From Echinostoma caproni (lineage: Eukaryota; Platyhelminthes; Trematoda; Plagiorchiida; Echinostomatidae): a stretch of 64,000 nt of DNA. Every line of letters starts with the position of its first letter. Position 1 is the first letter of the stretch. Below the pieces are notes generated by a model. It searched no databases, was not told the DNA's origin, and saw nothing but the letters and a program-made list of their open reading frames with translations. A program made the position numbers and the translations under genes. The stretch covers positions 1 to 64,000 of the forward strand of contig UZAN01040513.1 of assembly GCA_900618425.1 (NCBI GenBank), read 5' to 3'. Positions 1,121 through 62,040 of the stretch are shown here, piece after piece.

Positions 1121-2312
1121 TGGCCGAGGCGATTACAATTCGAAATTTCAATTCCAAATTATAGTCCAAACTCTGTTGTTACACCGGCCGGTGTTCTGAT
1201 GTTCCAATGGGATTATTCTGGAATTCTTTTGCCTCCAGATAACATCCGTTGCTATGAATGACATATAGTTTCTAGTGCATCTTACATGAATTTATTCCAC
1301 TCTCTCGTTTGAGCTCACAAAATTTATAGTAATAAGCCCATCTCCCTACCGGTTTCTATTTGACTTTTATCCTCATAGGAATGTTACTGGTTATTTCATA
1401 GGATGATTTGGTCATGTATAGAGCAAATTGAGCCTGAACTGAAAACCTAGGAAGCACCGTACAGCTGTTCTGGCCTAGTTGGGTTCAATCAGCAGTGCGA
1501 ACCAATTGACCCAGATGGGATCGAACCCGGAACCTCAGAGGCAGAACGTAAGCATGCTATCCACTTTCCCCTCGGACAACTGATCGGACCGTTTTTCATT
1601 TTCCATTTACACTACATAGTACAATCCATTTTGGCGATCTCATTGCGAGCATCGCGATTTGCTTATTTCAGCAGTCAGGTGGTGAAAGTTTCTCACCGAA
1701 TCACAACCCCGGAGGTTAGTGCTGAGATGAGCGAAGCGCGAGGCCCTCAAAAAGCTTGCAAAGATAGTTATACTATATCGTCTAAATCTAAAAAGAAAAA
1801 CGCTCTGGTCAGCTACCCGGTTGAAATATTTTGGACTTTCAGGTGAACCAAACATGAGATCAGCTTGTCATAAATAACGTAGGCTTTGAGAATAGCGAAA
1901 TGCATCACATTAATAACAGCTTGTTTTGTGCTGCGCACTGCATCCAGGGGATTGATCCGGAGCGGTTTTTAATTTTGAACTACTCCTTATTTTGGTAGTA
2001 GTCAGAAAGAACTCTACAAAATAACACGACGTCTTCACATTCATATATTCAGCTTGAGGTGGCAACATGAATAAGCAGAATGTTTTCAGAGGCCTGTTAT
2101 TACTTGTTTAGGGAACACAGAAATAAAATGAAAATTTCGAGGGTTTACTAACCATGGGCGGTACAAATAACCCGATTTTCAGTCCGGAAATTTATATTGT
2201 TCTGTGAATGTGTAGCAAAACAAAACAATAGTTGTGAACATTCAGCGATTTAACAAGTTAGTTCATCGTAGTCAAAATACTTATGCGACGTATCTTACGA
2301 GAGTACAGATTT
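1121..2312. other. Intergenic stretch with a tRNA-like repeat, otherwise unrecognised
   Basis: Apart from the tRNA-like segment near 1478-1582, I see no coding or repeat signature here. Short ORFs near 1630-1855 overlap on both strands and have no recognisable domain. Confidence 0.5.
1478..1582 (-). repeat. tRNA-like SINE head
   Basis: On the minus strand a B-box-like block (GGGTTCGATCCCA, near 1510-1525) sits downstream of a segment with a tRNA D-arm layout. This is the layout of a tRNA-derived SINE promoter. The element has no clear 3' body, so it is probably a truncated SINE and not a tRNA gene. Confidence 0.45.
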
Positions 2313-4199: not shown

Positions 4200-5635
4200 T
4201 CATCCTAACAAAGTGCTTCTATGATTCTTGGAAACATAACCTGACCGGCTCTCTAGTGAATAGCCACTTGTATCACCAGTTAAATCGACCTCGGTGTTTA
4301 GAGATTTTCTTTTACTAAGCGAACTATGAAGTACATCTTTTACTGGTTGAGATTTTGGTGATTTTTGTATTGTTCGCAAGGAAAATTCAACCGGTTCACA
4401 ACAATGTTGCTCGGAATCCTTCAAGACAGTCCAATATTGACCTTGCTCAACTCGACGTCCGGGTACTGGAGCTACCTTAGGGTTATTCCAGTAGGCCTGA
4501 TACAGAATTCTACCTGCTGCTCGACGTGCGCCAGTCTTTTCACATATGGAGGTCTTGGATTCCGTGTGAACCATTTTATCAGTGCTCCTAATGATGGCAG
4601 TTGACTCAAATCTCTGTCGCTGTTCCACTTGAGGATGAAGTGGAGCACTGCCGGCAAATCTCTTTAATGTGGAAGGTCCGCTGTGTGTGGAATGTTGAGG
4701 AGAATAATAATCGTCAATGGCATGATTGGAAAATCGAGTTTCATCCAATTCCTCACACGAATCAAAGTTTGCAACCTCTTCCGGGTCAGATGTGGAGCTG
4801 CTATCTGAACCGCCACGTGTGTAGTTGAGGCATATAGGATCTTCATCCGACAGATATGCATCATCTTCCACTAGACCATTAGGACTGATTGATTCACCCT
4901 CGTCACCAGAAACTGTGTGATCCGAACAGAGATCAAATGAATACTGTTTCCTTGATGATTTGGAGTGCAACCATCGGTCCGAGCGCATAGCACTGCTCAT
5001 CAGATTTCCAGAAGAAATTCGACTTTCTACAATATTACCTCGATTGGGTGATCCACTGGGTCCGGGTGTTTCAGATGAAAATTCTGGTTCCAATCCTTGA
5101 TCTTCTTCGTCATTCACAGTGATGCGGTCTCCGTTGTCAAAATATTGTTGCCTAGACAAAATGGGAAAGGATGGTGAATCACTTGAACCTTCATCTTCTG
5201 CTGATCGTATTGCTGGTTCAATTGCAGACGATGAATAACCAGTTGTTAGGATGTCATCTGCGGTTGATGGTGTCAAAAATCGCGCTGATGATCTAGAAAC
5301 CATGGCAGCCGACAAAGCACCTGATCCCTGCAATTCGTGGGTACCCCTTCTTTCAATAAGTGCGGAGCCTGATAAATCTGATGTGTCGTGCATGACAATA
5401 GAAGATTTGCTCTCAGATGGAACCCGAGAGTCTGGTCGAATTAAACTGGATCGAGAAGACTCGATCTGAGGAGGAATGACACTGGGGTTAACCGTTGCTG
5501 CAGTCGCTCGAGGTTTAAAATATCGATAAACTGGCCTCAAATGTCGGGGAACTTGATTTGGCGGACCGTGGACCGTGGGATCATACTCAGTTACCTCTCC
5601 AGAAGCGTAATTAAAAGACGCATAGCAAGGCACGA
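4200..5635 (-). CDS. Alpha-arrestin gene, last exon: end of arrestin C fold and long Ser-rich tail
   Basis: The exon follows an acceptor (CCATCCTTCAG) and starts with two bases that complete the codon begun in the previous exon. It runs 477 codons to TGA at 4200-4202. The first residues (VVPCYASFNYASG) continue the end of the arrestin C fold. The remaining roughly 450 residues look disordered, with Ser, Asp and Glu clusters such as SDSSSTSDPEE and YLSDEDPICL, and many Ser/Thr sites. Alpha-arrestin tails usually carry PPxY motifs that recruit Nedd4-family ubiquitin ligases. I find no PPxY in this tail; the nearest sequence is PVYRY. The tail is much longer than in typical animal ARRDC proteins. 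The exon assignment is firm because phase and splice sites agree with the upstream exon. The function, as an adaptor in membrane-protein trafficking or ubiquitination, is inferred from the family. Confidence 0.85.
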
Positions 5636-8600
5636 CTGAAGGATGGGATTGGAAAAATAAATATGAGAATGCTTAATTATTTAGCATCCAATTACGAATG
5701 AAATTTGAAATAAAAAGCGGATGATTCAAGGTGTGTTTTCAGTAAAATGAAATTGGAATGTAAATCGATATGCGAATATCATCTAGTCAAAATCATAGCA
5801 AATTTCCATCCGATACTTCAATTAAATGTACTATCCAAGTAATAAATGCTATTTAACTTAAACAGAGCAAAGGAAAACTAAACTAAAAAACTAAAGCTCC
5901 CTCTAAGCTGTTTGAATTAAGTTGTTTAGCAGCGACAGTGCGAAGAGTTCCAGGATTGTAATGAGCACCAAAATCGGAGTATTATAGACAAAATACAAGC
6001 ATGCTATTCAGTTGACCTACGAGTTTGCTCCTTATATCAGTAAATTCATTATGTGAACAAACGTGACTCAGAAACGCTGAGTTTCTTAGTTTTCATCGTT
6101 GGGGTCTGATGAGAAAGACGTTGTATACCTTGTTATATTTTTTGTTATAATATGCGTGAATTGTTAGGTATTGTGCATTCTTTCTTTTTTGCTTTTCGGT
6201 GATAAACAACCGATATTAGAATTGGAAAGAAACAAAAAACTCACTTAGGCTTGAGAGCCGTTTTGTCCGGAGTCGAAGAACGACATAAACAAACTGTGCG
6301 TATCCTGAGGTATATACTTATCTCGCGAGCAAACAAACAAGATAAACTAAACACAACGGACAAAAACAAATTTTAGCGAACTGCAGAAGAGAAACGAGCA
6401 CCACAAACACGTATACAATGAGGCTAGTCTACGAACCTCTGTTCAGGTCAGTAGGAGTGAAACACTTTTGTGTGTCCGTACGTGTGTGGATATGTGTGCG
6501 TATCAGTGTGTGTACTTAGGCGGAGTTGATGAAAGAAGGAAAAATAGTCAAACAAAAACACAATAATCTTATCCGTATTGATTTTCACTCAATCGCTTAT
6601 TCGCTTTGCTGGTCCAGGCATATGATACTCAGGAATAGAGAATTCCCTTTCCCATCCCTGTCACATGGACCGATTCACACGGAGGAATCGCTGAAAAACA
6701 TTGAAGATGTTTTGCAAATAATCCTCATTCATCAGTTTGATATGACACTGGCTACACAAAAATAATTTAGTGAAAGTGTCTAAAAGCCGGAATCATTGAA
6801 CTGTCGTGAATCTACAAAATTATGGGATTTGTTAAAAAAAAGTGGAATGTACACAAATATATACGGTAAAACAAAGCGAAACATGAATTGTTCGGGAAGC
6901 TAAAAACAGGCAAACATCAGTTCTTACATGATACAATAAATAAACAATCGGATAATTGTGAGATACATGAAAGAGCAATAGGAATTTAAACAATTTTTTG
7001 ATGTTTGACGGAAATCATGAATAACTGATAAAAAGTTAAACGTTTTATTCCAACAGATGTGCATTTTACTCTTCGACACTCGTCTATTTTCCACAGTTTG
7101 ACTGCATTATACCAAAGCGCAGTGCTGAAAAGTCATGACAGAGATAACAAAGCAATATCGTATTCCTTGTGAAATAGTATAAACAAGCAATATAATATGA
7201 TGTGTAGAACGGTATTTTTCCAACATAAAAAGGAATGAGGGAAGTCCCTGAAATAATAAATAATATATATATATGGACGGCGAAATAGGTTGATGGATAG
7301 AGATACACCAACATATAAATATATGAACGTTGTTATCAGCCTTTAGTTTGGTTTTCAGTTTGCCTGCTGAAGCTGTTTGCGATGAATTTAATTTTTTATT
7401 TCGGGACATCTCTCGTTCCCTTCTATGTAGCAAAAATGCCGTTATTAACATCAAATTTTATTGTTTGTTTATGTTAAACAAAGGTCTTCATCAAATGAAT
7501 TATCCATAGTAATACTTGCGTTTTTTTTGATTGGATAGGTGATCAGTACAATACAAAATACCTGAAACATATCACAAGTTTCATTTATTTTTCTCGTGTT
7601 ATGGAAGGACTGCACAGCATTCAGTAAACCCTCGTGTGGATTTATCGCTTCGATATGATTTAGATAAAATTAAGTATATTTTTTAATATGAGTACAAATA
7701 TTTAGAATTTTGGAATGTATACCACTTAAATTGTGTGACAGTTACGTACCAACTTCAGCAGCATCTTAAATATCTTGCACATGATTTTCCCAAAATTTCA
7801 ATCATTCGCTGACAGAAATCTTTCGACCTACATTAATGATCTGTCTCAGCACTATGGAATGGGAAACTGACCTTGTGCAGAAGATAGTCACTCTTTGGTT
7901 TTGATAAGAACAACTGTTGCCCAGTTGTCAAATCGTCGTCTCACGTGCGGTTTCCCAAAGCGGGCAATGAATCGCCGCTGAAAACATATGTGTGTGTCGT
8001 GCATGCCTTGACATAAGTACGTCCGTAAATCCACACATTTGTGTCCAAACGCCAAGACAATTTCGTCCGAGCATCGCTTGGGCATTTTCAGGCAACGCCA
8101 CAAACTTTGAAGATGTACAACGCACCAAGGAAGCCAAGCTGTTATCGCAAGCCCAAAGAATGTACGCACCCCGTCAGACCGGGGATGAAATTTGGGTTGG
8201 TATAGAGATGGTGATTTGCTGCATGATCATCCTGGCTTCTGCAAAGCACGTACGTTGTGCACGCGTGTGTGTGTACAACTCTGGTTCGTTTTCATCACTA
8301 CAACTCGCCCCTTCGTGTCCCGTCTCCCCCTCCCCCTAAATCGAACCAATTCCATCCTGTCTTGTCCCGGTCCTCCACGCACCTTTTCGGCACCTCAATT
8401 TACGCCCGATACTCGTGACAAGGACTGTTTTTGTCTATGCGACCAGCAACATGATCAATATTCGACAAGATGGTCGTTAGGCTTGGGACAGAACATGAAT
8501 CCCAACCGCACAAAGAGAGTGGAACAAAAAGCTCTCGTGGAACAATTATATGGCAGGTCATTCGACGAGAAATGCATACTGACAGCATAACAAACACGAA

Positions 8601-18530: not shown

Positions 18531-18867
18531 ACATCTTCCGATTTACCGTAGGATAAACAAAAATAGATCGTTGACTAGCGTTAGAAAATACCGTTCACGG
18601 TTGAACCGATCAAATGAATGGGCCTAGGGGAACGGGGATTCGAAAACATCATTTGTTACATTGACTTGAGTGAAATCAATCAATCATTTGTTCAAATCTA
18701 ATCAACATTATTTTGGATAGATACGTAACGTAGCATTTTATATTTAACAAAAACAAGTTCATTTTTAGGAGTAGTAAATTCAGAATAATCCATTTGGTGG
18801 TTTAAAAGCACCAGGCTCTGTTGGTGAGTGTTGGTTTCATTCCATGGGAAATAGTTAATTCCCCACT

Positions 18868-19045
18868 AGTTGAATGCGTTTATGAGCGATGGGGTAAGGA
18901 TCTGAAGTCACGACCCGAACGCTCGCGGTTCAAAACCAGACAGGGACACAACGTATGCACTGATGTCGAGCCCCAAACCGGGCGAAACAGCTGTTCAGTG
19001 CTCTTTGTTGATAATCACAAATCTTCCCATCACTTATAAATTCAA
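18868..19045 (+). repeat. SINE-A copy with hammerhead module
   Basis: A tRNA-like head with a B-box-like GCGGTTCAAAACC is followed by GACAGGGACACA, the 45-nt hammerhead module (18957-19001) and a 3' tail, CTCTTTGTTGATAATCACAAA. The same order occurs at 61860-62040 and, without the head, near 24275-24385. Confidence 0.75.
18957..19001 (+). ncRNA. Hammerhead ribozyme copy, core mutated
   Basis: The segments in order are GCACTG (stem I), ATGTCGA where CUGANGA is expected, GCCC/GGGC as stem II with a CAAACC loop, GAAAC, AGCT, the triplet GTT and CAGTGC (stem I). Stem I and stem II pair perfectly, and the GCCC/GGGC pair differs in compensating fashion from the other copies. The altered core makes activity unlikely. 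Confidence 0.7.
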
Positions 19046-22910: not shown

Positions 22911-24274
22911 CTGGAGTTACAGAACAGTCAAAGGATAAAGTCGGATCAACTCTTTCGGTCAGACCACAACAGAAAGACTGCCGGGTGAATGAATAGCAAG
23001 GAAAACCCAAAATACTATCTAAAATATGAAACAGACGGATTCAAGTCAAATCAAACAAACAATTGCTATCTGCAGCACGAACGGCGAGTATTCAGCTTGA
23101 TATGAGATGTAAAAGTTCTCATTTTGTATCATAACCGAGTAATTTTACCAATCAATAACAACGGTGATTGGTTGGGGAAAAGGAATAGAAGAAAATCATT
23201 TCATAAACATTCATTTACATCAGTCTTATCACCGATCTATTTTCACACAGTGTACAAAGCAAATCCTTGTACAAAATTATTTGATGATTGAAATAGACAG
23301 TAAGGTGAAACCTGCATCAAAATTAAAAGAGGAGAATCTTCGTAGTTTCATCTAGCTGCAGGTTCATTTCTGAAGGCAAAACAAAACCGTCAAAATATCG
23401 AAATATCTAGTACTTGCTAGTGATTGTTTTACAAGACAAGTAAATCCCTCCTTGCATGGGTAAAAAAGTAGCTAGTTTGAGACAAGACGATAATGTTGTA
23501 AGGTTTACAATGTTTGTACACTAAGCCTGTTGTAAAAAAAAACAGTTGAAGGCAATCTAAGAAGCTATTCAACTTTAAAGTGATCCAAGCTCTGAACCCT
23601 GAGAGTTTTGAGATTTTACGAGCACAGATAATCAGAAATTTAACCTACTAACTCATACTTCCTTTTAAATGAGTCTCAGCCCGATTCAATAATTTTCACA
23701 ATTTCCGAAAAAATCAAGGCGGATATTTTTGCCGACTCATCAGCTCATCATCAAAATATTCGCAATGCACAACTGCGTGGATTAGAGTTCTGAGTTAAAC
23801 GGCGCTCTGCTGGTGTCCAAAAGTAGCAAATCACTTGGGTATGCCGGTTACATAATCTCAAATGAACCAGAATATTAAACAAGCAACAGTCCAAATAAAG
23901 TGGCAGTGACAAAGGGCCTCAAATTAAACCATAAACCGCGTTGAGCGTAATCTGTTGTGTGCCCCCTCTCCCCCCCACCCAACTCCTCTACGGCAGTGCG
24001 CTAACACATTAGCCGCCGCTGAGGCGACGGGCGTTGACCTATTCACACTAGAACTATGCACACAAGTGACTGGCCCAAGCTCTCCAATTACCCTGGCCCC
24101 AAAGTGATCAACAACATCACCATTACCAACACTTCAATCACAACTGACTTCATTTAAATGCAGACACATAGGACTCACCCCTCCCCTCTCCCAATTCCGA
24201 ATGACATTTCGAGCCAACGTGAAAATGTGGCTCCACCAACAAAAGCACCATATATGATCTGTACATGTAGGATT

Positions 24275-24385
24275 ATGACAGGGACACAAAAGGTACGCAC
24301 TGTTGACGAATCCCAAACAGGACGAAGCAGCTGTCCAGTGCTCTTCATTGGTTATCACAAACATTTCCATCGCATTTAAATGCAT
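24275..24385 (+). repeat. SINE-A copy, head replaced or truncated
   Basis: It begins at GACAGGGACACAAAAGGTAC and continues through the hammerhead module into CTCTTCATTGGTTATCACAAA and the terminal CATTTAAATGCATGA. No tRNA-like head precedes it, so it is probably 5'-truncated. Confidence 0.7.
24297..24341 (+). ncRNA. Hammerhead ribozyme copy, decayed
   Basis: The segments are GCACTG, TTGACGA (first core C changed), ATCC/GGAC with a CAAACA loop (one A-C mismatch), GAAGC (last A of GAAA changed), AGCT, GTC and CAGTGC. It aligns without gaps over 45 bases with the copies at 18957 and 61951. Two core changes argue against activity. Confidence 0.7.
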
Positions 24386-24436: not shown

Positions 24437-24775
24437 TTCCAGAGGTAATTTTTATTTGTAAGTCGATTGTGAAAATTTCAGTAGCCGCGGTGGAATTCGA
24501 GCCCTTGCAAGGACGCCGCCTAGGCTTTGTACGCGCATGCTCTACCAGCTGAGCTACGAGGCCACACCGATAGCACTGATCTTTTCACATTCGAATTTAC
24601 CCAACTTAAAGAGGCGTGAGGCATCCACCAGTTAGCATGTAAGCTGACTGCCTCGACAGGTTTCCCTTAGAATTCACCGGAGTCCACCGAATGAGCTTCT
24701 AAGACAAGGTTAATTGCTCAAATTGTTGTTTGGCAGATTTGAAGTTTGTATGTCGATTGTGTGAATTTCGCTAGT
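24437..24775 (-). repeat. SINE-C copy with extra 3'-end fragment
   Basis: On the minus strand a tRNA-like head (GGCCTCGTAGCTCAGCTGG) is followed by an altered B-box region and GGCTACTGAAATTTTCACAA. Upstream of the head lies GATGCCTCACGCCTC and CTGTCGAGGCAGTCAGC, also present at 59.3 kb. A second fragment of the SINE-C tail (GTTGTTTGGCAGATTTGAAG) sits at about 24723-24765. Confidence 0.7.
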
Positions 24776-26319: not shown

Positions 26320-26485
26320 AGGAATTAATTAATCGGTGTGGCCTCGTAGCTCAGCTGGTAGAGCATGCGTGTACAAAGCGTAGGCGGCGTCCATGGTGGG
26401 TTCGAATCCCACCGCGGCTACTGAACTCTTCACAATCGACATACAAACTTCAAATCTGCCAAACAACAATTTGAACAATTTTTTA
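26320..26485 (+). repeat. SINE-C copy, best preserved
   Basis: The head at 26340-26419 folds close to a tRNA cloverleaf: acceptor six of seven pairs, D stem GCTC/GAGC, an anticodon-like stem and T stem GTGGG/CCCAC around TTCGAAT. The region between the anticodon and T stems is about 13 bases and irregular, so it is not a functional tRNA gene. The body reads GGCTACTGAACTCTTCACAA, then CGACATACAAACTTC and CTGCCAAACAACAATTT. Confidence 0.8.
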
Positions 26486-29394: not shown

Positions 29395-29557
29395 GTTGGT
29401 GTTGGTGAGTTCTCCGAGCTGGAAGTGTAGTTCACAGAAGTTTCGTAGCCAAGCTAGGCAACATCATCAGTGCGACTTCGAGGAATCGCCAATCCCCAGT
29501 GGGACAGGGCTTCTATAGTTCTGTTTGAGGGTTGTGATTGGATGTTTGCGTCCCTTT
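29395..29557 (-). repeat. Left inverted arm (pseudo-LTR) of the PLE
   Basis: The reverse complement of this segment matches 30972-31134 with a few mismatches. Both contain GACGCAAACA, CCAATCACAACCCTC, CCCACTGGGGATTGGCGATT and TAGCTTGGCTACGAAACTTC. Confidence 0.88.
29429..29477 (-). ncRNA. Hammerhead-like motif in left PLE arm
   Basis: On the minus strand AGTCGCA-CTGATGA is followed by a GTTGCC/GGCTAC hairpin, GAAA, CTTC and TGTGAACT, whose TGTGA pairs with TCGCA using one G-T wobble. Compared with the right arm the change is C to T and keeps pairing. Stem III is essentially absent. Confidence 0.5.
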
Positions 29558-30971: not shown

Positions 30972-31134
30972 AAAGGGACGCAAACAGCCAATCACAACCC
31001 TCAAACAGAACTATAGAAGCCCTGTCCCACTGGGGATTGGCGATTCCTCGAAGTCGCACTGATGATGTTGCCTAGCTTGGCTACGAAACTTCTGCGAACT
31101 ACACTTCCAGCTCGGAGAACTCACCAATACCAAC
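30972..31134 (+). repeat. Right inverted arm (pseudo-LTR) of the PLE
   Basis: This is the partner of 29395-29557. It begins at AAAGGGACGCAAACA directly after the endonuclease reading frame and ends at CACCAATACCAAC. Confidence 0.88.
31052..31100 (+). ncRNA. Hammerhead-like motif in right PLE arm
   Basis: Strand AGTCGCA precedes CTGATGA. A single T and a GTTGCC-TAGCTT-GGCTAC hairpin (one mismatch) give stem II. GAAAC, TTC and TGCGAACT follow, and TGCGA is complementary to TCGCA. This is the layout of the minimal type I hammerheads reported in PLEs. The extra T after CTGATGA and TTC in place of GTC may weaken it. Confidence 0.55.
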
Positions 31135-35375: not shown

Positions 35376-35875
35376 GCTCAGCGTTTCCTCAGTGGCTGCT
35401 TTGTTATAAGAAAGTGGGACCGTTTCCAAATTATGCAGTTGCAGCAGCTGTTGTGCGGTTCCCGTGGATGTCTAAATAAAAGCAAGGTGAAAACTAAAAT
35501 AGCAGCCCAGCAATCAAATGGACTGTTTCCGATATGAATCATTCTTATAAGTAAATAAAGTGTTTTGTCTAGAAAAGAAGTGGCAACACATCCAGGATTT
35601 TTACTTGAAACCTCTTCTTTTTACTCAAAAGCAACTCAAAACGGACGATCATTTTCTCTTCTCGACTTCCTTATTGAGGAATCGATGAATGGCCTGAATT
35701 TCGCCCGAAAACGCTTGTGGTTATAAACTGGTAACTAATTTAGGTAAGTTTCCCGGGAAATTGAAAATAATAAAAATGATAACTGCTGCATAACTAGACA
35801 GTTTATCTAAAAATCTTCGCGTTCCACTCTGTTCATGTTTACAACTGCTTATATACAAACATAAGTTGAACTTAC

Positions 35876-37008
35876 TCGAAGTCGGGGAAAATGCGTCAGC
35901 TCAAGTGGTCGAAACACAATGATTTCTCTCTGTTGTGTGTGCCGAATCCGCGCCGTATAGTTCCGGATCTCAATTCGTAACCCATAGCAGAGTCGAGCTG
36001 CTGCTCCACCAGCTAAACAGCTAGTTGGAAGTTCAAATGAGCTCGGTAAGTCAGCGGGAAGCTTGAACTCAAAATCAAAAACATGCGTACCCCGTGTCAA
36101 TAGGAATGCGGTGCCTGATGCAGACTTTTTCATACTGTTTGTCTCTGTTTCAGGTGTCGCAGCGGATCCGGATTCGGGGTTTAGGTTGTTTGAATCTTCC
36201 ACCGCTAAGCCCTCAGCGTATTCGGGGTCTGTTCTTTCATCTTCTGCGTTATCTTGTGAGTTGGAGAAACTACTTTCGCTTGATGGACCCGCCTCAGCAC
36301 GAGTGTTTTGTCGAACGGGAGAGTTGTAATGTTTCAGCAGATTCACTTTCGCCCGATATATAATACGAACATCTCCGTAGCTTACTTTCCTCTTCTTTTT
36401 CTGCTTATTACTGTCAATATTTTGCATCGTTGAACACTTCTGGCTGGCTATTCTGGAAGCACATGAGTCACAAGACTGGCAAGTTAGGAATGCGAAACGA
36501 TTCGATTTCATTTGGGCTGCTAGAGCGGCTTCATTACTCATGCAGCTAATTTTGCTAGTACTGCTACTATGTCGACTGCAGCTTCCTCGTTCCAGCGAAG
36601 CAATCAGTGTGTCTGTCACGGAGTTATACGAGTTTGAACGCTCTGTATTACGCGAAACTGGATCTCGAGAGTAGCTACCACCAGTAGAACTCATCTGTCC
36701 CATAGGAGGACGCATATCCCAGGGGCAATCGAAATCCGGATAGCACGGCTTTTTACTGTGTCGTGCACACAGTCCATCTCTTTTCCAATCATGACTTACG
36801 TTGCGTATGTTTTCTGTCACTTGAGAAAAGAAGCTCACAGTACTTGTGCAAAGGTTCTCCAAGTTTCGCTTATCGCCAAGAGCATTCAAAGTAGTGGTTG
36901 ACCGAACCAAGTTCAAGCCGACCGAAAGAGAACCAGCTTCAGCAAGAGTAGCCTTTGAATCAGGTGTCCATCGCGTCTTCACAAGCCCATAAAGCCATAT
37001 TACGCAAC
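35876..37008 (-). CDS. Alpha-arrestin gene, main arrestin-N exon with large insert
   Basis: The acceptor is GCTTTCCAG and the donor CTTCGA|GTAAGT. The exon starts with two bases of a split codon and encodes 377 full codons. It opens with CVIWLYGLVKTRWT, the V-x-L-x-G-x-A-x-T-x-W-T strand pair of arrestin N domains. An insert of about 270 residues follows. It is Ser-rich and includes a Cys cluster (CQSCDSCASRIASQKC) and a basic stretch (KQKKKRKV) that resembles a nuclear localisation signal. From about residue 299 the fold resumes with LLTRGTHVFDFEFKLPADLP, LCYGLRIEI, and REIIVFRPLELTHFPRLR. In vertebrate ARRDC proteins the two halves are about 25-30 residues apart. Confidence 0.9.
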
Positions 37009-37550
37009 CTGGAAAGCGGAAAAATGGTGAGAAAAGTAAAAAGTAGTAACACTGATACGGCTGAACAAAATTTTAAAACTATATTTTTTGCAATGTCAAC
37101 ATTTGAAAGACTGAGAATAATTTACTTTATTCACTTCGTCGGTAAGGAATTCAAGTAGAAAAACCGGTTCACATGAATTCAGCCATTTCACATCACTTAA
37201 CTTCATACGCCTTCATTTCGGTCTTCTACTTAGCTATTGCACTCATACACTTTGAGCTATAATATCAGGTTTGTAAATTTTTCCGAGTCTGTACTGCTGT
37301 AAAATGCAACATATCTACCATAATAATTTATGAGGAATGAAAATAAACATATTGCTTTTCCTTTGGATCACTTGTGGTCCTATGGGATAATATTTCAAGG
37401 TCCAGGATAGTTGGGAAATGTTTCGCTAGAAGAAATTAGAGTACAGTCATTCTTTTAATAACTGATGGATTAGTAAGATATTTTGTCGTTAACAAAAGTA
37501 CAAAATGAAACTAACCGGCTTCACAACCAAATATACGTGACTGAATAAAA

Positions 37551-49439: not shown

Positions 49440-49599
49440 GTAATGACATCTTCTCACCTTTGTTTGGCAGGTTGAATTCGTATGTTGAAGTTGTGAGAAG
49501 TTCAGTAACCTCGATGAGATCTGGACCCACGCATGGACGCCGCCCACGCTTTTGTACAGCGCAAGCTCTATCAGCTGAGCTACGAGTCCGCATCGATAG
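49440..49599 (-). repeat. SINE-C copy cut by the assembly gap
   Basis: On the minus strand it runs from GACTCGTAGCTCAGCTGATAG through GGCGGCGTCCATGCGTGGG to CCTGCCAAACAAAGG. Its 5' end is lost at the run of N. Confidence 0.75.
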
Positions 49600-50109
49600 N
49601 NNNNNNNNNNNNNNNNNNNNNNNNNNNNNNNNNNNNNNNNNNNNNNNNNNNNNNNNNNNNNNNNNNNNNNNNNNNNNNNNNNNNNNNNNNNNNNNNNNNN
49701 NNNNNNNNNNNNNNNNNNNNNNNNNNNNNNNNNNNNNNNNNNNNNNNNNNNNNNNNNNNNNNNNNNNNNNNNNNNNNNNNNNNNNNNNNNNNNNNNNNNN
49801 NNNNNNNNNNNNNNNNNNNNNNNNNNNNNNNNNNNNNNNNNNNNNNNNNNNNNNNNNNNNNNNNNNNNNNNNNNNNNNNNNNNNNNNNNNNNNNNNNNNN
49901 NNNNNNNNNNNNNNNNNNNNNNNNNNNNNNNNNNNNNNNNNNNNNNNNNNNNNNNNNNNNNNNNNNNNNNNNNNNNNNNNNNNNNNNNNNNNNNNNNNNN
50001 NNNNNNNNNNNNNNNNNNNNNNNNNNNNNNNNNNNNNNNNNNNNNNNNNNNNNNNNNNNNNNNNNNNNNNNNNNNNNNNNNNNNNNNNNNNNNNNNNNNN
50101 NNNNNNNNN
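49600..50109. other. Assembly gap (510 N)
   Basis: A run of 510 N. Apparent long ORFs across it are artefacts. The same 30 bases, ending ACGAGTCCGCATCGATAG, lie immediately before the gap (ending at 49599) and immediately after it (ending at 50140). Confidence 0.99.
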
Positions 50110-50345
50110 TATCAGCTGAGCTACGAGTCCGCATCGATAGCACTGATTTTTTCCTATTCGAATCACCCTACCGTTGCAGTCGGCTCACATGCTACCTGGT
50201 GGAAGCCATATGCCTCTGTAAGTTGAATGGGCGATTCGAATAGGGGAAGATCAGTGTCATCGGCGTGGCCTCGTAACTCAGCTGGTAAAGCTTGCGCTGT
50301 TCAAAAAGCGTAAGCGGCTTCTATGAGTGGGTTCGAACCCCACAA
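50110..50345. repeat. Head-to-head pair of SINE-C copies
   Basis: 50110-50160 is the 5' part of a minus-strand SINE-C copy. 50262-50345 is a plus-strand SINE-C head (GGCCTCGTAACTCAGCTGG, then GTGGGTTCGAACCCCAC). Between them GATAGCACTGATTTTTTCCTATTCGAAT is mirrored by ATTCGAATAGGGGAAGATCAGTGTCAT, so the two copies meet at their 5' ends as an imperfect palindrome. Confidence 0.7.
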
Positions 50346-56429: not shown

Positions 56430-57480
56430 AGGATTGTTAGGAAACACATGGTTCGGCTGGACGTGTAATCATTATTCACCAATGTACCCGTTAGTGAATT
56501 TATTCGAATAATGTGTAATCTCGTGGAAGCAGAACAAGTGAGAACCGGTCTACTGGGCTCCGTCTCTGAGAGGCTCTTGCTACTGTGTACTACAGACGTC
56601 TATTTTACATTCTAAGGAAAGGCATATAAACGAATTGATGATGTGGCCATGGGAAGCCTTTTTGGTTCAGTACTAGCGGATTTATTCATGGCACACTTGG
56701 AATCCCAAGTTCAGAATTCACTAAAAAGAGCTTTGTTTTACAAAAGATATGTTGATGATATTCCTATTATCGTGGACAAGGTAAAACAGGCCAAGAACAT
56801 CCTCAAAGGCCCTAGTCGACTATATCAGAACATACGATTTAGCTTGGCAACTAAACAGTACAATAACCTGGGTATCTTTGACATAAATATCATCCGAAAG
56901 CCAGATGGAACAATTTCACGATCGATCTATCGTAAAACAACCTGAACGGGTCAGTACATGCGCTTTGGAAGTTTTCTGCCAATTGCATATAAACATGGAA
57001 ATTCTATACAGAAATTCGGTGCTTCCTAGCTTTTCAGTTCACGCTTCATTTGCTATATACACGACGAATTCCCTTATGAAATTTAATCAAATTCTCCGTT
57101 TCTCACATGAAACATGGTTTTGTTGATACCCTATTCGATAGAGCCCGTCGAATTCGCACCGACGACACGATATCAAATGAGATCAGCTTGTTGCGTAACA
57201 CTACAAAGAAATGGTTATCCAGATGAATTTGTTGACAGGCTCTGTAGATTGAATATTGAAAAATCGGCGTCTTAAATTGGAGATCACAATTTGTCTTCCA
57301 TTCAAAGATGATGATTTAACTAATCTATTTCATCAACGATTACGAGCGGTTGTCAACCGGACTTACTACGCAGCCAAACCCAGAATTGTACACAGGACAC
57401 AGAGCCGGTAACCGGGACGGACTGTGCTTACAAAACACCAAGCTTATTGATTCCCAAGCTCTTATTGATGACGCAACACC
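56430..57480 (+). mobile_element. Decayed Penelope-like element, RT region
   Basis: Near 56460 the sequence reads SLFTNVPVSEFIRI after a stop. It continues with AMGSLFGSVLADLFMAHLES, LFYKRYVDDIPIIVDK with the catalytic Asp pair, LGIFDINIIRKPDGTIS and SIYRKTT. After a frameshift it reads YPDEFVDRL and LRAVVNRTYYAAKPRIVHRT. This is the PLE RT from finger to the region before GIY-YIG. No endonuclease is visible downstream. It differs in sequence from the copies at 0.1, 15.3 and 29.4 kb. Confidence 0.82.
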
Positions 57481-59270: not shown

Positions 59271-59274
59271 AAGT

Positions 59275-59575
59275 CAAATAGTTGTTTGGCAGATTTGAAG
59301 TTTGTATGTCGATTGTGAAAAGTTCAGTAGCCGGTGAATTCTAAGGAAAACCTGTCGAGGCAGTCAGCTTCTTTGTACGCGCACGCTCTTCCAGCTGAGC
59401 TACGAGGCCACACCGATAGCAGTGATCTTTTTCACATTCGAATTTACCCATCCAACTTACAGAGGCATGTGGCATCCACCAGTTAGCATGTAAGCTGACT
59501 GCCTCGACAGGTTTTCCTTAGAATTCACCGGCTACTGAACTTTTCACAATCGACATACAGACTTAAGTCAATTGC
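59275..59575. repeat. Foldback SINE-C derivative with 71-base arms
   Basis: 59299-59369 and 59493-59563 are inverted copies differing at one base in 71. The centre of 123 bases carries, on the minus strand, the SINE-C A-box block (GGCCTCGTAGCTCAGCTGG) and the 5' flank found at 24.6 kb. Each arm fuses the SINE-C 3' part (TTCAGTAGCC, CGATTGTGAAAAG) with CTGTCGAGGCAGTCAGC, which belongs upstream of the SINE head in the 24.6-kb copy. The normal B-box region is therefore replaced by an inverted copy of upstream sequence. Confidence 0.9.
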
Positions 59576-59636: not shown

Positions 59637-59815
59637 AAAAAACTGGTAGTGGCCGAGAGGTTAGGTCACTAAATTATCGCTCCAAAGGATTGGTGTTCGA
59701 ATCTCACTACCGCCGCCTGAATTCCCCACCCTCTGTGTTGTAGGGCTGCTCTTTGATTGACAGCTTCTCCCTTCCAGAAAATCGTATCATTATATGTTCA
59801 ATAAAAAGAAATAAA
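59637..59815 (+). repeat. SINE-B copy, best preserved and in plus orientation
   Basis: GGTAGTGGCCGAGAGGTTAG and GGTGTTCGAATCTCACTACC give A and B boxes of a Ser/Leu-type tRNA head. A CCGCCGCCTGAATTCCCCAC linker, a GGGCTGCTCTTTGATTGA block and the tail TCAATAAAAAGAAATAAAA follow. This copy defines the orientation of the family. Confidence 0.8.
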
Positions 59816-60659: not shown

Positions 60660-61660
60660 TAATACCCAGAACGCTTATCACTTACTTAGGTCACTAAATC
60701 CACAACCATCAAGCTTAATGCAACCCGTAGTACTTACACTCGTTCAAGAACCAGTGGCCGTCATTTAAGAGCCCGCGGCGATCATGTGGGATCCATAGAC
60801 GTTGCTTTGACTTTGACAACTAGATATTAAACGTTGGACTTAGGGTCTTCTAACATCACCACATGCTCTTAAATTTCTGTCATTAGCATCTAAAAGACAA
60901 TAAATACTGTTCATTTTAGAACCCTCTGACCAGGATTGTTACAATTTACTCTGACCAACATTGGGCTTTATTCAACCACTCCCTTCCCCAGCAAATATCA
61001 TATTTGGTAAGTAAAATTTACCAATCACACACACATATAAAAAAGAACAATTACCTTTTAAAACTTCAACCAAATAGTGGAATCGAAGTTAAAACCGAAA
61101 ATGGCCAATGGATTGAATGTGTCTATAACTGTAGTGATGGAACAGATAAATGCCAGGGTTTTGAACACCTAGCCTCTTTCCTTTGGAGATTGCAACAAAT
61201 TACTCATGTTTGATTGATGCTACTAAACCATGATGAAGATAAAAAAATGAAGACATCTCTATAAATACTCTAATTCTGAAGGAAAACGCTTGCAAAATAC
61301 GGTAATAGGTCCGTTGGAACTCAACTGTGTGAAAATCTTATCGATATCCTGGCTAGACCACACGTCCAAGAGCCTGGGTTTACTAAATATGAATTGATGA
61401 GAAAATTGAAAAACAAACTACATGATAATGTATTAGCATTTTATGAGATACACCAATCGATTTTTGGCCAATGTTTTTAACTTGCCAGTGTATTTATATA
61501 AAAAGACTACATGCAACGCAGCCATCTTGATTCAACCACGAATTAAGTAGGCTCCTAGGGCAAAAGCAAGGCACAGCTAAGATATCGACGAACAAGGAGT
61601 ATAAAGTATTTCGAAACCAGTGTACCCTGCTCAAGAAGAGTAAGAAGGCCTTCTTTGCGC
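60660..61660. other. Unrecognised stretch
   Basis: No supported feature. The 69-codon ORF at 61004-61213 has no family signature. Confidence 0.5.
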
Positions 61661-61664
61661 AGCA

Positions 61665-61725
61665 CCTTGCAGAGCTCTTTGTTGGTTATCGTAAACATTA
61701 TTATGGCGTGTATATGCATGAAATT
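61665..61725 (+). repeat. SINE-A tail fragment
   Basis: TGCAGAGCTCTTTGTTGGTTATCG, AACATTATTATGGCG and TATGCATGAA match the 3' end of SINE-A at 24.3 and 62.0 kb. The hammerhead module upstream is not recognisable. Confidence 0.5.
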
Positions 61726-61859
61726 GTGGGGAATTAACGATCTCCCAAGAAGTGAAACCCATACCCAAGAACATCAAGAGTACCCGGTGCCTCTGAATAA
61801 TCGAATGAGCTAATCCAAGCTTGCTACTCTAAATTAATTGAGCCATTTGCACAAGGTGA

Positions 61860-62040
61860 TGACCGTCGACCGTGTAGCTCAGTGGTAAGGGTTTTGAAGT
61901 CCCAAACTGAACGTTCGCGGTTCGAGTCGTGACAGGGACACAAAAAGTACGCACTGCTGACGAGTCCGAAACAGGTCGAAACAGTTGTCCAGTGCTCTTG
62001 GGTGGTTATCACAAGCATTACTATCGCATGTGAATGCACA
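61860..62040 (+). repeat. SINE-A, most complete copy with intact hammerhead core
   Basis: The head has an A box (TAGCTCAGTGGTAAGG) and a B box (GCGGTTCGAGTCGTG), so RNA polymerase III transcription is plausible. GACAGGGACACA, the hammerhead module (61951-61995) and the tail CTCTTGGGTGGTTATCACAA follow. The layout, a pol III head followed by a hammerhead, is that of the schistosome Sm-alpha family. Confidence 0.82.
61951..61995 (+). ncRNA. Hammerhead ribozyme with intact catalytic core
   Basis: The segments in order are GCACTG (stem I), CTGACGA (core), GTCC-GAAACA-GGTC (stem II with one U-U mismatch), GAAA, CAGTTG as a very short stem III with a two-base loop, the cleavage triplet GTC and CAGTGC (stem I). 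Every core base required by the CUGANGA...GAAA...NUH consensus is present. The tiny stem III is like that of Sm-alpha, whose hammerheads are thought to act best as dimers. Cleavage would fall after 61989. Confidence 0.85.

Follow-up and report, generated by a model that had tools for sequence, protein, structure and literature searches.

The closest described counterparts of the element reported here are Sm-alpha of Schistosoma mansoni and Sj-alpha of S. japonicum, which are SINE-like elements with type I hammerheads (PMC2770079). According to the same source, blastn yielded about 38,500 candidates in S. mansoni, as against 5,000 in S. japonicum; of the 2,368 tRNA-Gln-TTG-like genes of S. mansoni, 2,342 are classed as Sm-alpha-like SINEs. 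Schistosome repeats have been reported to contain a full tRNA-Gln (PMC4918200), and in S. mansoni, hammerheads whose core is intact and whose stem III is very short are described as cutting in vitro (PMC8490949). Four sources place most animal type I hammerheads in non-LTR retrozymes and name platyhelminths generally (PMC7229834, PMC7761336, PMC4918200, PMC6155905). One Penelope-like element could do without its ribozyme in vitro, and reads beginning or ending at the cut site were not found (PMC11167929). Among the open-licence literature matches listed, we found no report of a ribozyme SINE in a non-schistosome fluke.

Here, we describe a ribozyme-bearing repeat that is dispersed across a 64-kb stretch of fluke DNA (64,000 nucleotides; hereafter 'the window') as four copies (A, B, C, and E) and two fragments (D and F). 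We put at roughly 85 per cent the probability that positions 61951-61995, in copy C, form the ribozyme part of an old SINE-like family, of the Sm-alpha kind, that belongs to a digenean fluke, copy C itself being decayed and probably having no role in the host. The motif, the copies, their relation to each other, and the states of their cores are as follows:

61951..61995, + strand: type I hammerhead of copy C; RF00163 42.3 bits; intact core; predicted cleavage after 61989
61875..61928, + strand: head of copy C; A box 61875-61885, B box 61919-61928, TTTT at 61892-61895 in between
61877..62038, + strand: copy C repeat (head, linker, ribozyme, tail), common to copies A and B; nhmmer 2.1e-52, copy C being one of the profile's own training copies
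18890..19044, + strand: copy A; head degenerate, hammerhead at 18957-19001 (core ATGTCGA), tail; RF00163 35.3 bits; nhmmer
24274..24384, + strand: copy B; without the shared head; hammerhead at 24297-24341 (core TTGACGA, GAAG), tail; RF00163 45.4 bits; nhmmer
1445..1533, - strand: copy E, from a diverged subfamily; B box present, hammerhead at 1454-1498 degenerate, tail unlike that of copies A-C; nhmmer 8.2e-6
61670..61718, + strand: fragment D; tail only, in the same orientation as copy C; nhmmer 4e-6, local alignment 61658-61718; anchored extension
57017..57082, + strand: fragment F; E-subfamily tail without a head; blastn E 1e-13, 83.6% over 67 columns

Copy C was matched by RF00163 (Rfam Hammerhead_1; gathering threshold 34 bits) at 42.3 bits, with an E-value of 2e-7 over the 64-kb window. 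The first-pass annotation of this DNA had proposed a check with the Rfam hammerhead models over the genome; within the window, both the coordinates and the cleavage after 61989 that it had predicted agree with the Rfam match. The core, claimed to be intact (CTGACGA, GAAA, and GTC), indeed has no consensus base mutated: copy C conforms to CUGANGA and GAAA, with NUH at the cut site, and three stems ring the junction. Stem I (GCACTG/CAGTGC) pairs at 6/6 positions, as had been stated, and stem II (GUCC/GGUC) contains the one mismatch noted there, a U.U; stem III consists of two pairs enclosing four bases. A strict hammerhead descriptor has 61951-61995 as its sole match in the window, and it yielded a mean of 0.083 matches per shuffled window (n=60, both strands). 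Covariation was rejected as support for the hammerhead, as 151 of 500 shuffles were equally good with three sequences only.

The repeat that contains the hammerhead opens with a head in which the pol III boxes lie. A short linker leads from there to the type I hammerhead, whose stem III is very short and self-complementary, and a tail specific to the subfamily follows. By blastn, copy C is 78-86% identical to copies A and B. Its A box is TAGCTCAGTGG at 61875 and its B box is GTTCGAGTC, starting at about 61919-61920, and the two are normally spaced. Since pairs of A and B boxes arise by chance 0.57 times per strand (30 shuffles), the boxes of copy C are weak evidence when taken alone. With the box patterns used, such a pair was not found in the other copies in the window, and a B box is readable in copies A and E. 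The element had been called a tRNA-headed SINE with A and B boxes; the promoter boxes at 61875 and 61919 are there, and no tRNA model matched the head of copy C even at E 10, so that 'tRNA-headed' is a fair term for the boxes and not for a recognisable tRNA. Four Ts can terminate pol III, and the TTTT at 61892-61895, between the two boxes, could stop the polymerase ahead of the ribozyme.

Other tRNA-like sequences occur in the window. A further repeat family, present in both orientations (24455-24690, 26332-26480, 49476-50343, and 59274-59564), is probably a second SINE, without a hammerhead at the Rfam threshold; ARAGORN takes one of its copies for a tRNA-Cys whose anticodon is odd. A separate stretch at 59648-59715 is tRNA-like, with A and B boxes and, by eye, an apparent 7-bp acceptor stem; neither ARAGORN nor Rfam at threshold makes a call there.

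Besides copy C, the hammerheads at 18957 and 24297 (copies A and B) score above the Rfam threshold, each with a mutated core. The reading as a SINE family is supported by these three above-threshold matches in 64 kb and by the common element around them. An nhmmer profile built from copies A, B, and C found D and E. Copy E has no Rfam hammerhead match, and its core, placed in register, reads CTGATTG with AGAA. In one ungapped register, E agrees with A-C at 30-32 of the 45 positions of the ribozyme; the corresponding counts are 7-8 of 19 in the linker and 13-15 of 43 in the tail. The gapped profile alignment additionally spans the B-box stretch. These alignments suggest that there are two subfamilies whose clearest common part seems to be the stretch from the B box to the ribozyme. 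On the other side stand the missing match of the head to a tRNA model and the outcome of a search for target-site duplications, which found no clear one at A, C, D, E, or F; copy B is flanked by a possible 7-bp duplication, AAGCACC, at 24243 and 24409. A 48-bp stretch that recurs in opposite orientation, 79% alike (18819-18866, just upstream of A, and 61726-61773, between D and C), is perhaps a separate small repeat.

The Sm-alpha architecture to which the first-pass annotation pointed is borne out by the published descriptions, in which a repeat with pol III boxes contains a hammerhead of type I (PMC8490949, PMC2770079). As described there, Sm-alpha (W36.2 in PMC8490949) and Sj-alpha resemble the element in the window in having, within a short, pol III-type fluke repeat, a hammerhead of type I whose stem III is very short. 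In both cases, the ribozyme lies downstream of the promoter boxes, and the spacing of 320 nt between D and C is near the 332-335 bp of their units. The differences are that the stem I sequence of the window element departs from the Rfam consensus and that, setting our data beside the published descriptions, Sm-alpha relates to tRNA-Gln whereas the head here is unrecognisable as a tRNA. Because the head has no tRNA match, we file the element as the same kind as Sm-alpha and Sj-alpha and not as a member of their family. Scans with hammerhead or SINE patterns returned no loci in viral contigs; in genome contigs, a pattern scan returned three bacterial loci, none with an Rfam match and, by estimate, about the number expected by chance.

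Penelope-like elements with minimal hammerheads are another comparison; they too hold a type I hammerhead within a retroelement. The candidate of that sort in the window (31059, + strand; 29470, - strand) differs in that it lacks stem III, is of unrelated sequence to the copy C motif, and is located in repeat arms next to a protein-coding element. The arms form an inverted repeat (29395-29557 and 30972-31134, 98% alike) that flanks two open reading frames (ORFs), and each carries one copy of the minimal hammerhead-like motif. A descriptor written after the motif had been seen gives 0.0125 matches per shuffled window, and the two arms count as one independent case; the best Rfam hammerhead score at the arms is 15.4 bits, to type III, far under the cut-off of 48.5. 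Judging by motifs, we take the two ORFs to resemble a Penelope-like reverse transcriptase. The other support for that label is an 11/19 match between two ORFs of the window; the ORFs have no PDB match, no Pfam match above cut-off, and no database relative.

If the element is a SINE-like family of the Sm-alpha kind, an active copy would have been transcribed by pol III or by read-through, and the hammerhead would have cut the RNA just before the 3' strand of stem I, either as a monomer or as a dimer formed through the self-complementary stem III. The reverse transcriptase of a retrotransposon would then have copied the RNA into new sites. Copy C would be one such insertion, now decayed and presumably inactive, which has kept its core by accident and probably does nothing for the host.

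A different account would make the element a metazoan non-LTR retrozyme, with tandem units of about 320 bp whose transcripts are cut at two hammerheads and circularised before reverse transcription; one unit would then extend from D to C (61670-61989), its cleavage sites 320 nt apart. Retrozymes, too, are short repeats with type I hammerheads, and D and C lie in the same orientation at that distance. Because the 320-nt spacing is close to the Sm-alpha unit, given as 332 and 335 bp in PMC8490949, D-C may be one retrozyme-like unit instead, and PMC7229834 assigns most animal type I hammerheads to retrozymes, with lengths of about 170-400 nt. However, the tandem arrangement is seen at most once: nhmmer and blastn within the window placed no tail at the 320-nt spacing upstream of A, B, or E, gapped local alignments detected no ribozyme at D, and the stretch from the D tail to the C head has one other match only, the inverted 48 bp beside A. 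Retrozymes are also described as promoterless (PMC7761336), whereas the element here carries pol III boxes. We therefore regard a retrozyme as rather unlikely.

Fragments D and F bear on how the element may have moved. Both are headless, they belong to different subfamilies, and their matches to the other copies appear to start at the predicted cut when scoring is stricter, and 9-13 nt upstream of it when scoring is permissive. Anchored at the first base of the 3' cleavage product, extension downstream scores 27-46 for D (against A-C) and 70 for F (against E), and extension upstream scores 0-2 and 0, respectively. An ungapped start-point model gives the cut base as the likeliest start of both fragments at an assumed identity of 80 and 90%, and positions -2 (D) and -9 (F) at 70%; the cut base was picked as the anchor after F had been seen, and these start-point tests are thus post hoc. 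The blastn starts for D (14 rows) fall six times at 0, once at -2, five times at -12/-13, once at +4, and once at +12, and those for F (5 rows) three times at 0 and twice at -9. Likewise, nhmmer and one blastn row begin the D match at 61658, 12 nt upstream of the cut base. A degenerate ribozyme upstream of D or F was not found: in all eight gapped local alignments, between 4 and 35 of 40 shuffles scored as high, and all four control pairs exceeded the maximum of their 40 shuffles. The 3' strand of stem I seems to be part of both D and F, so that a reverse transcriptase that simply stalled at the entry to stem I would be expected to have ended later. Copy B, the third copy without the shared head, does not start at the cut base.

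The start points of D and F, which are two fragments chosen post hoc, are a lead and not a result. They raise the possibility, which we hold to be unlikely at present, that germ-line activity of the hammerhead fixed the 5' ends of new insertions, linear self-cleaved 3' products having been reverse-transcribed and inserted besides full-length or circular RNA.

Returning to the SINE-like family, its state is one of decay. Copies A-C diverge from each other by 14-22% (blastn), and the core is intact in one of the four ribozyme-bearing copies (C; not A, B, or E); stem I is identical in A, B, and C and has one wobble in E. Most probably, copy C has survived by chance in an old family that is decaying, and at such an age a single intact core among four can be explained without selection on copy C. 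Selection on copy C as a working ribozyme in the host, e.g. one acting on a transcript that contains it, would account for a core that is intact whereas those of A, B, and E are broken; yet B and C agree at 39/45 positions of the ribozyme, not above the 18/19 of the linker and little above the 35/43 of the tail, and the TTTT between the boxes of copy C likewise speaks against it, so that we think such selection highly improbable. A chance assembly of hammerhead-like bases at 61951-61995, in favour of which nothing was found, is all but excluded by the E-value of 2e-7 for the RF00163 match, the presence of three Rfam-level copies in the window, and the yield of 0.083 strict matches per shuffled window.

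Self-cleavage of the copy C motif is possible on its sequence, provided that it is transcribed. The broken cores in three of the four copies, the TTTT between the boxes, and the mismatch in stem II may tell against such activity in present-day copy C. The Rfam score is no measure of activity because the best score belongs to copy B, the core of which is mutated. Stem III is self-complementary, and in A, B, and C 8/8 of its positions can pair between molecules; the predicted homodimers of A and B form the stem III helix, and that of copy C does not (i.e. no dimeric hammerhead is predicted). Folding energy proved unusable as evidence for or against activity: the minimum free energy of copy C is -12.3 kcal/mol and that of its hammerhead fold -6.5 kcal/mol (a gap of 5.8), and for the Rfam consensus the gap is much the same, at 5.0 (-12.8 and -7.8 kcal/mol).

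The kind of fluke can be judged from one gene. The ORF at 35849-37072 (- strand) contains an arrestin N-terminal domain (Pfam E 2.4e-8) and is fast-evolving among flukes. Among 7993 candidates scored, it has five relatives at E <= 0.001, all of them flukes: Paragonimus kellicotti (32% identity, 287 bits), P. westermani (41%, 243 bits), Opisthorchis viverrini (42%, 231 bits), Schistosoma mattheei (32%, 135 bits), and S. margrebowiei (33%, 135 bits). The two Schistosoma rows stand apart in an unrooted tree of the six rows, and the ORF, as one gene with five relatives, is probably nearer to Paragonimus and Opisthorchis than to Schistosoma. A protein search with another ORF, at 4200-5672, gave one match.

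The window thus probably holds a decayed ribozyme SINE of a fluke outside Schistosoma, the genus in which the kind was described, and the schistosome-type ribozyme SINE is thereby extended to a fluke that, as judged from a single gene, is unlikely to be a schistosome. That a second subfamily is alike mainly in the stretch from the B box to the ribozyme hints that the ribozyme matters to the element. If cleavage in the germ line did set the 5' ends of insertions, genomes would hold a countable fossil record of ribozyme cleavage in vivo; and if the 5' ends of SINEs pile up at the cut site, the role of the ribozyme could be counted from genome sequence alone.
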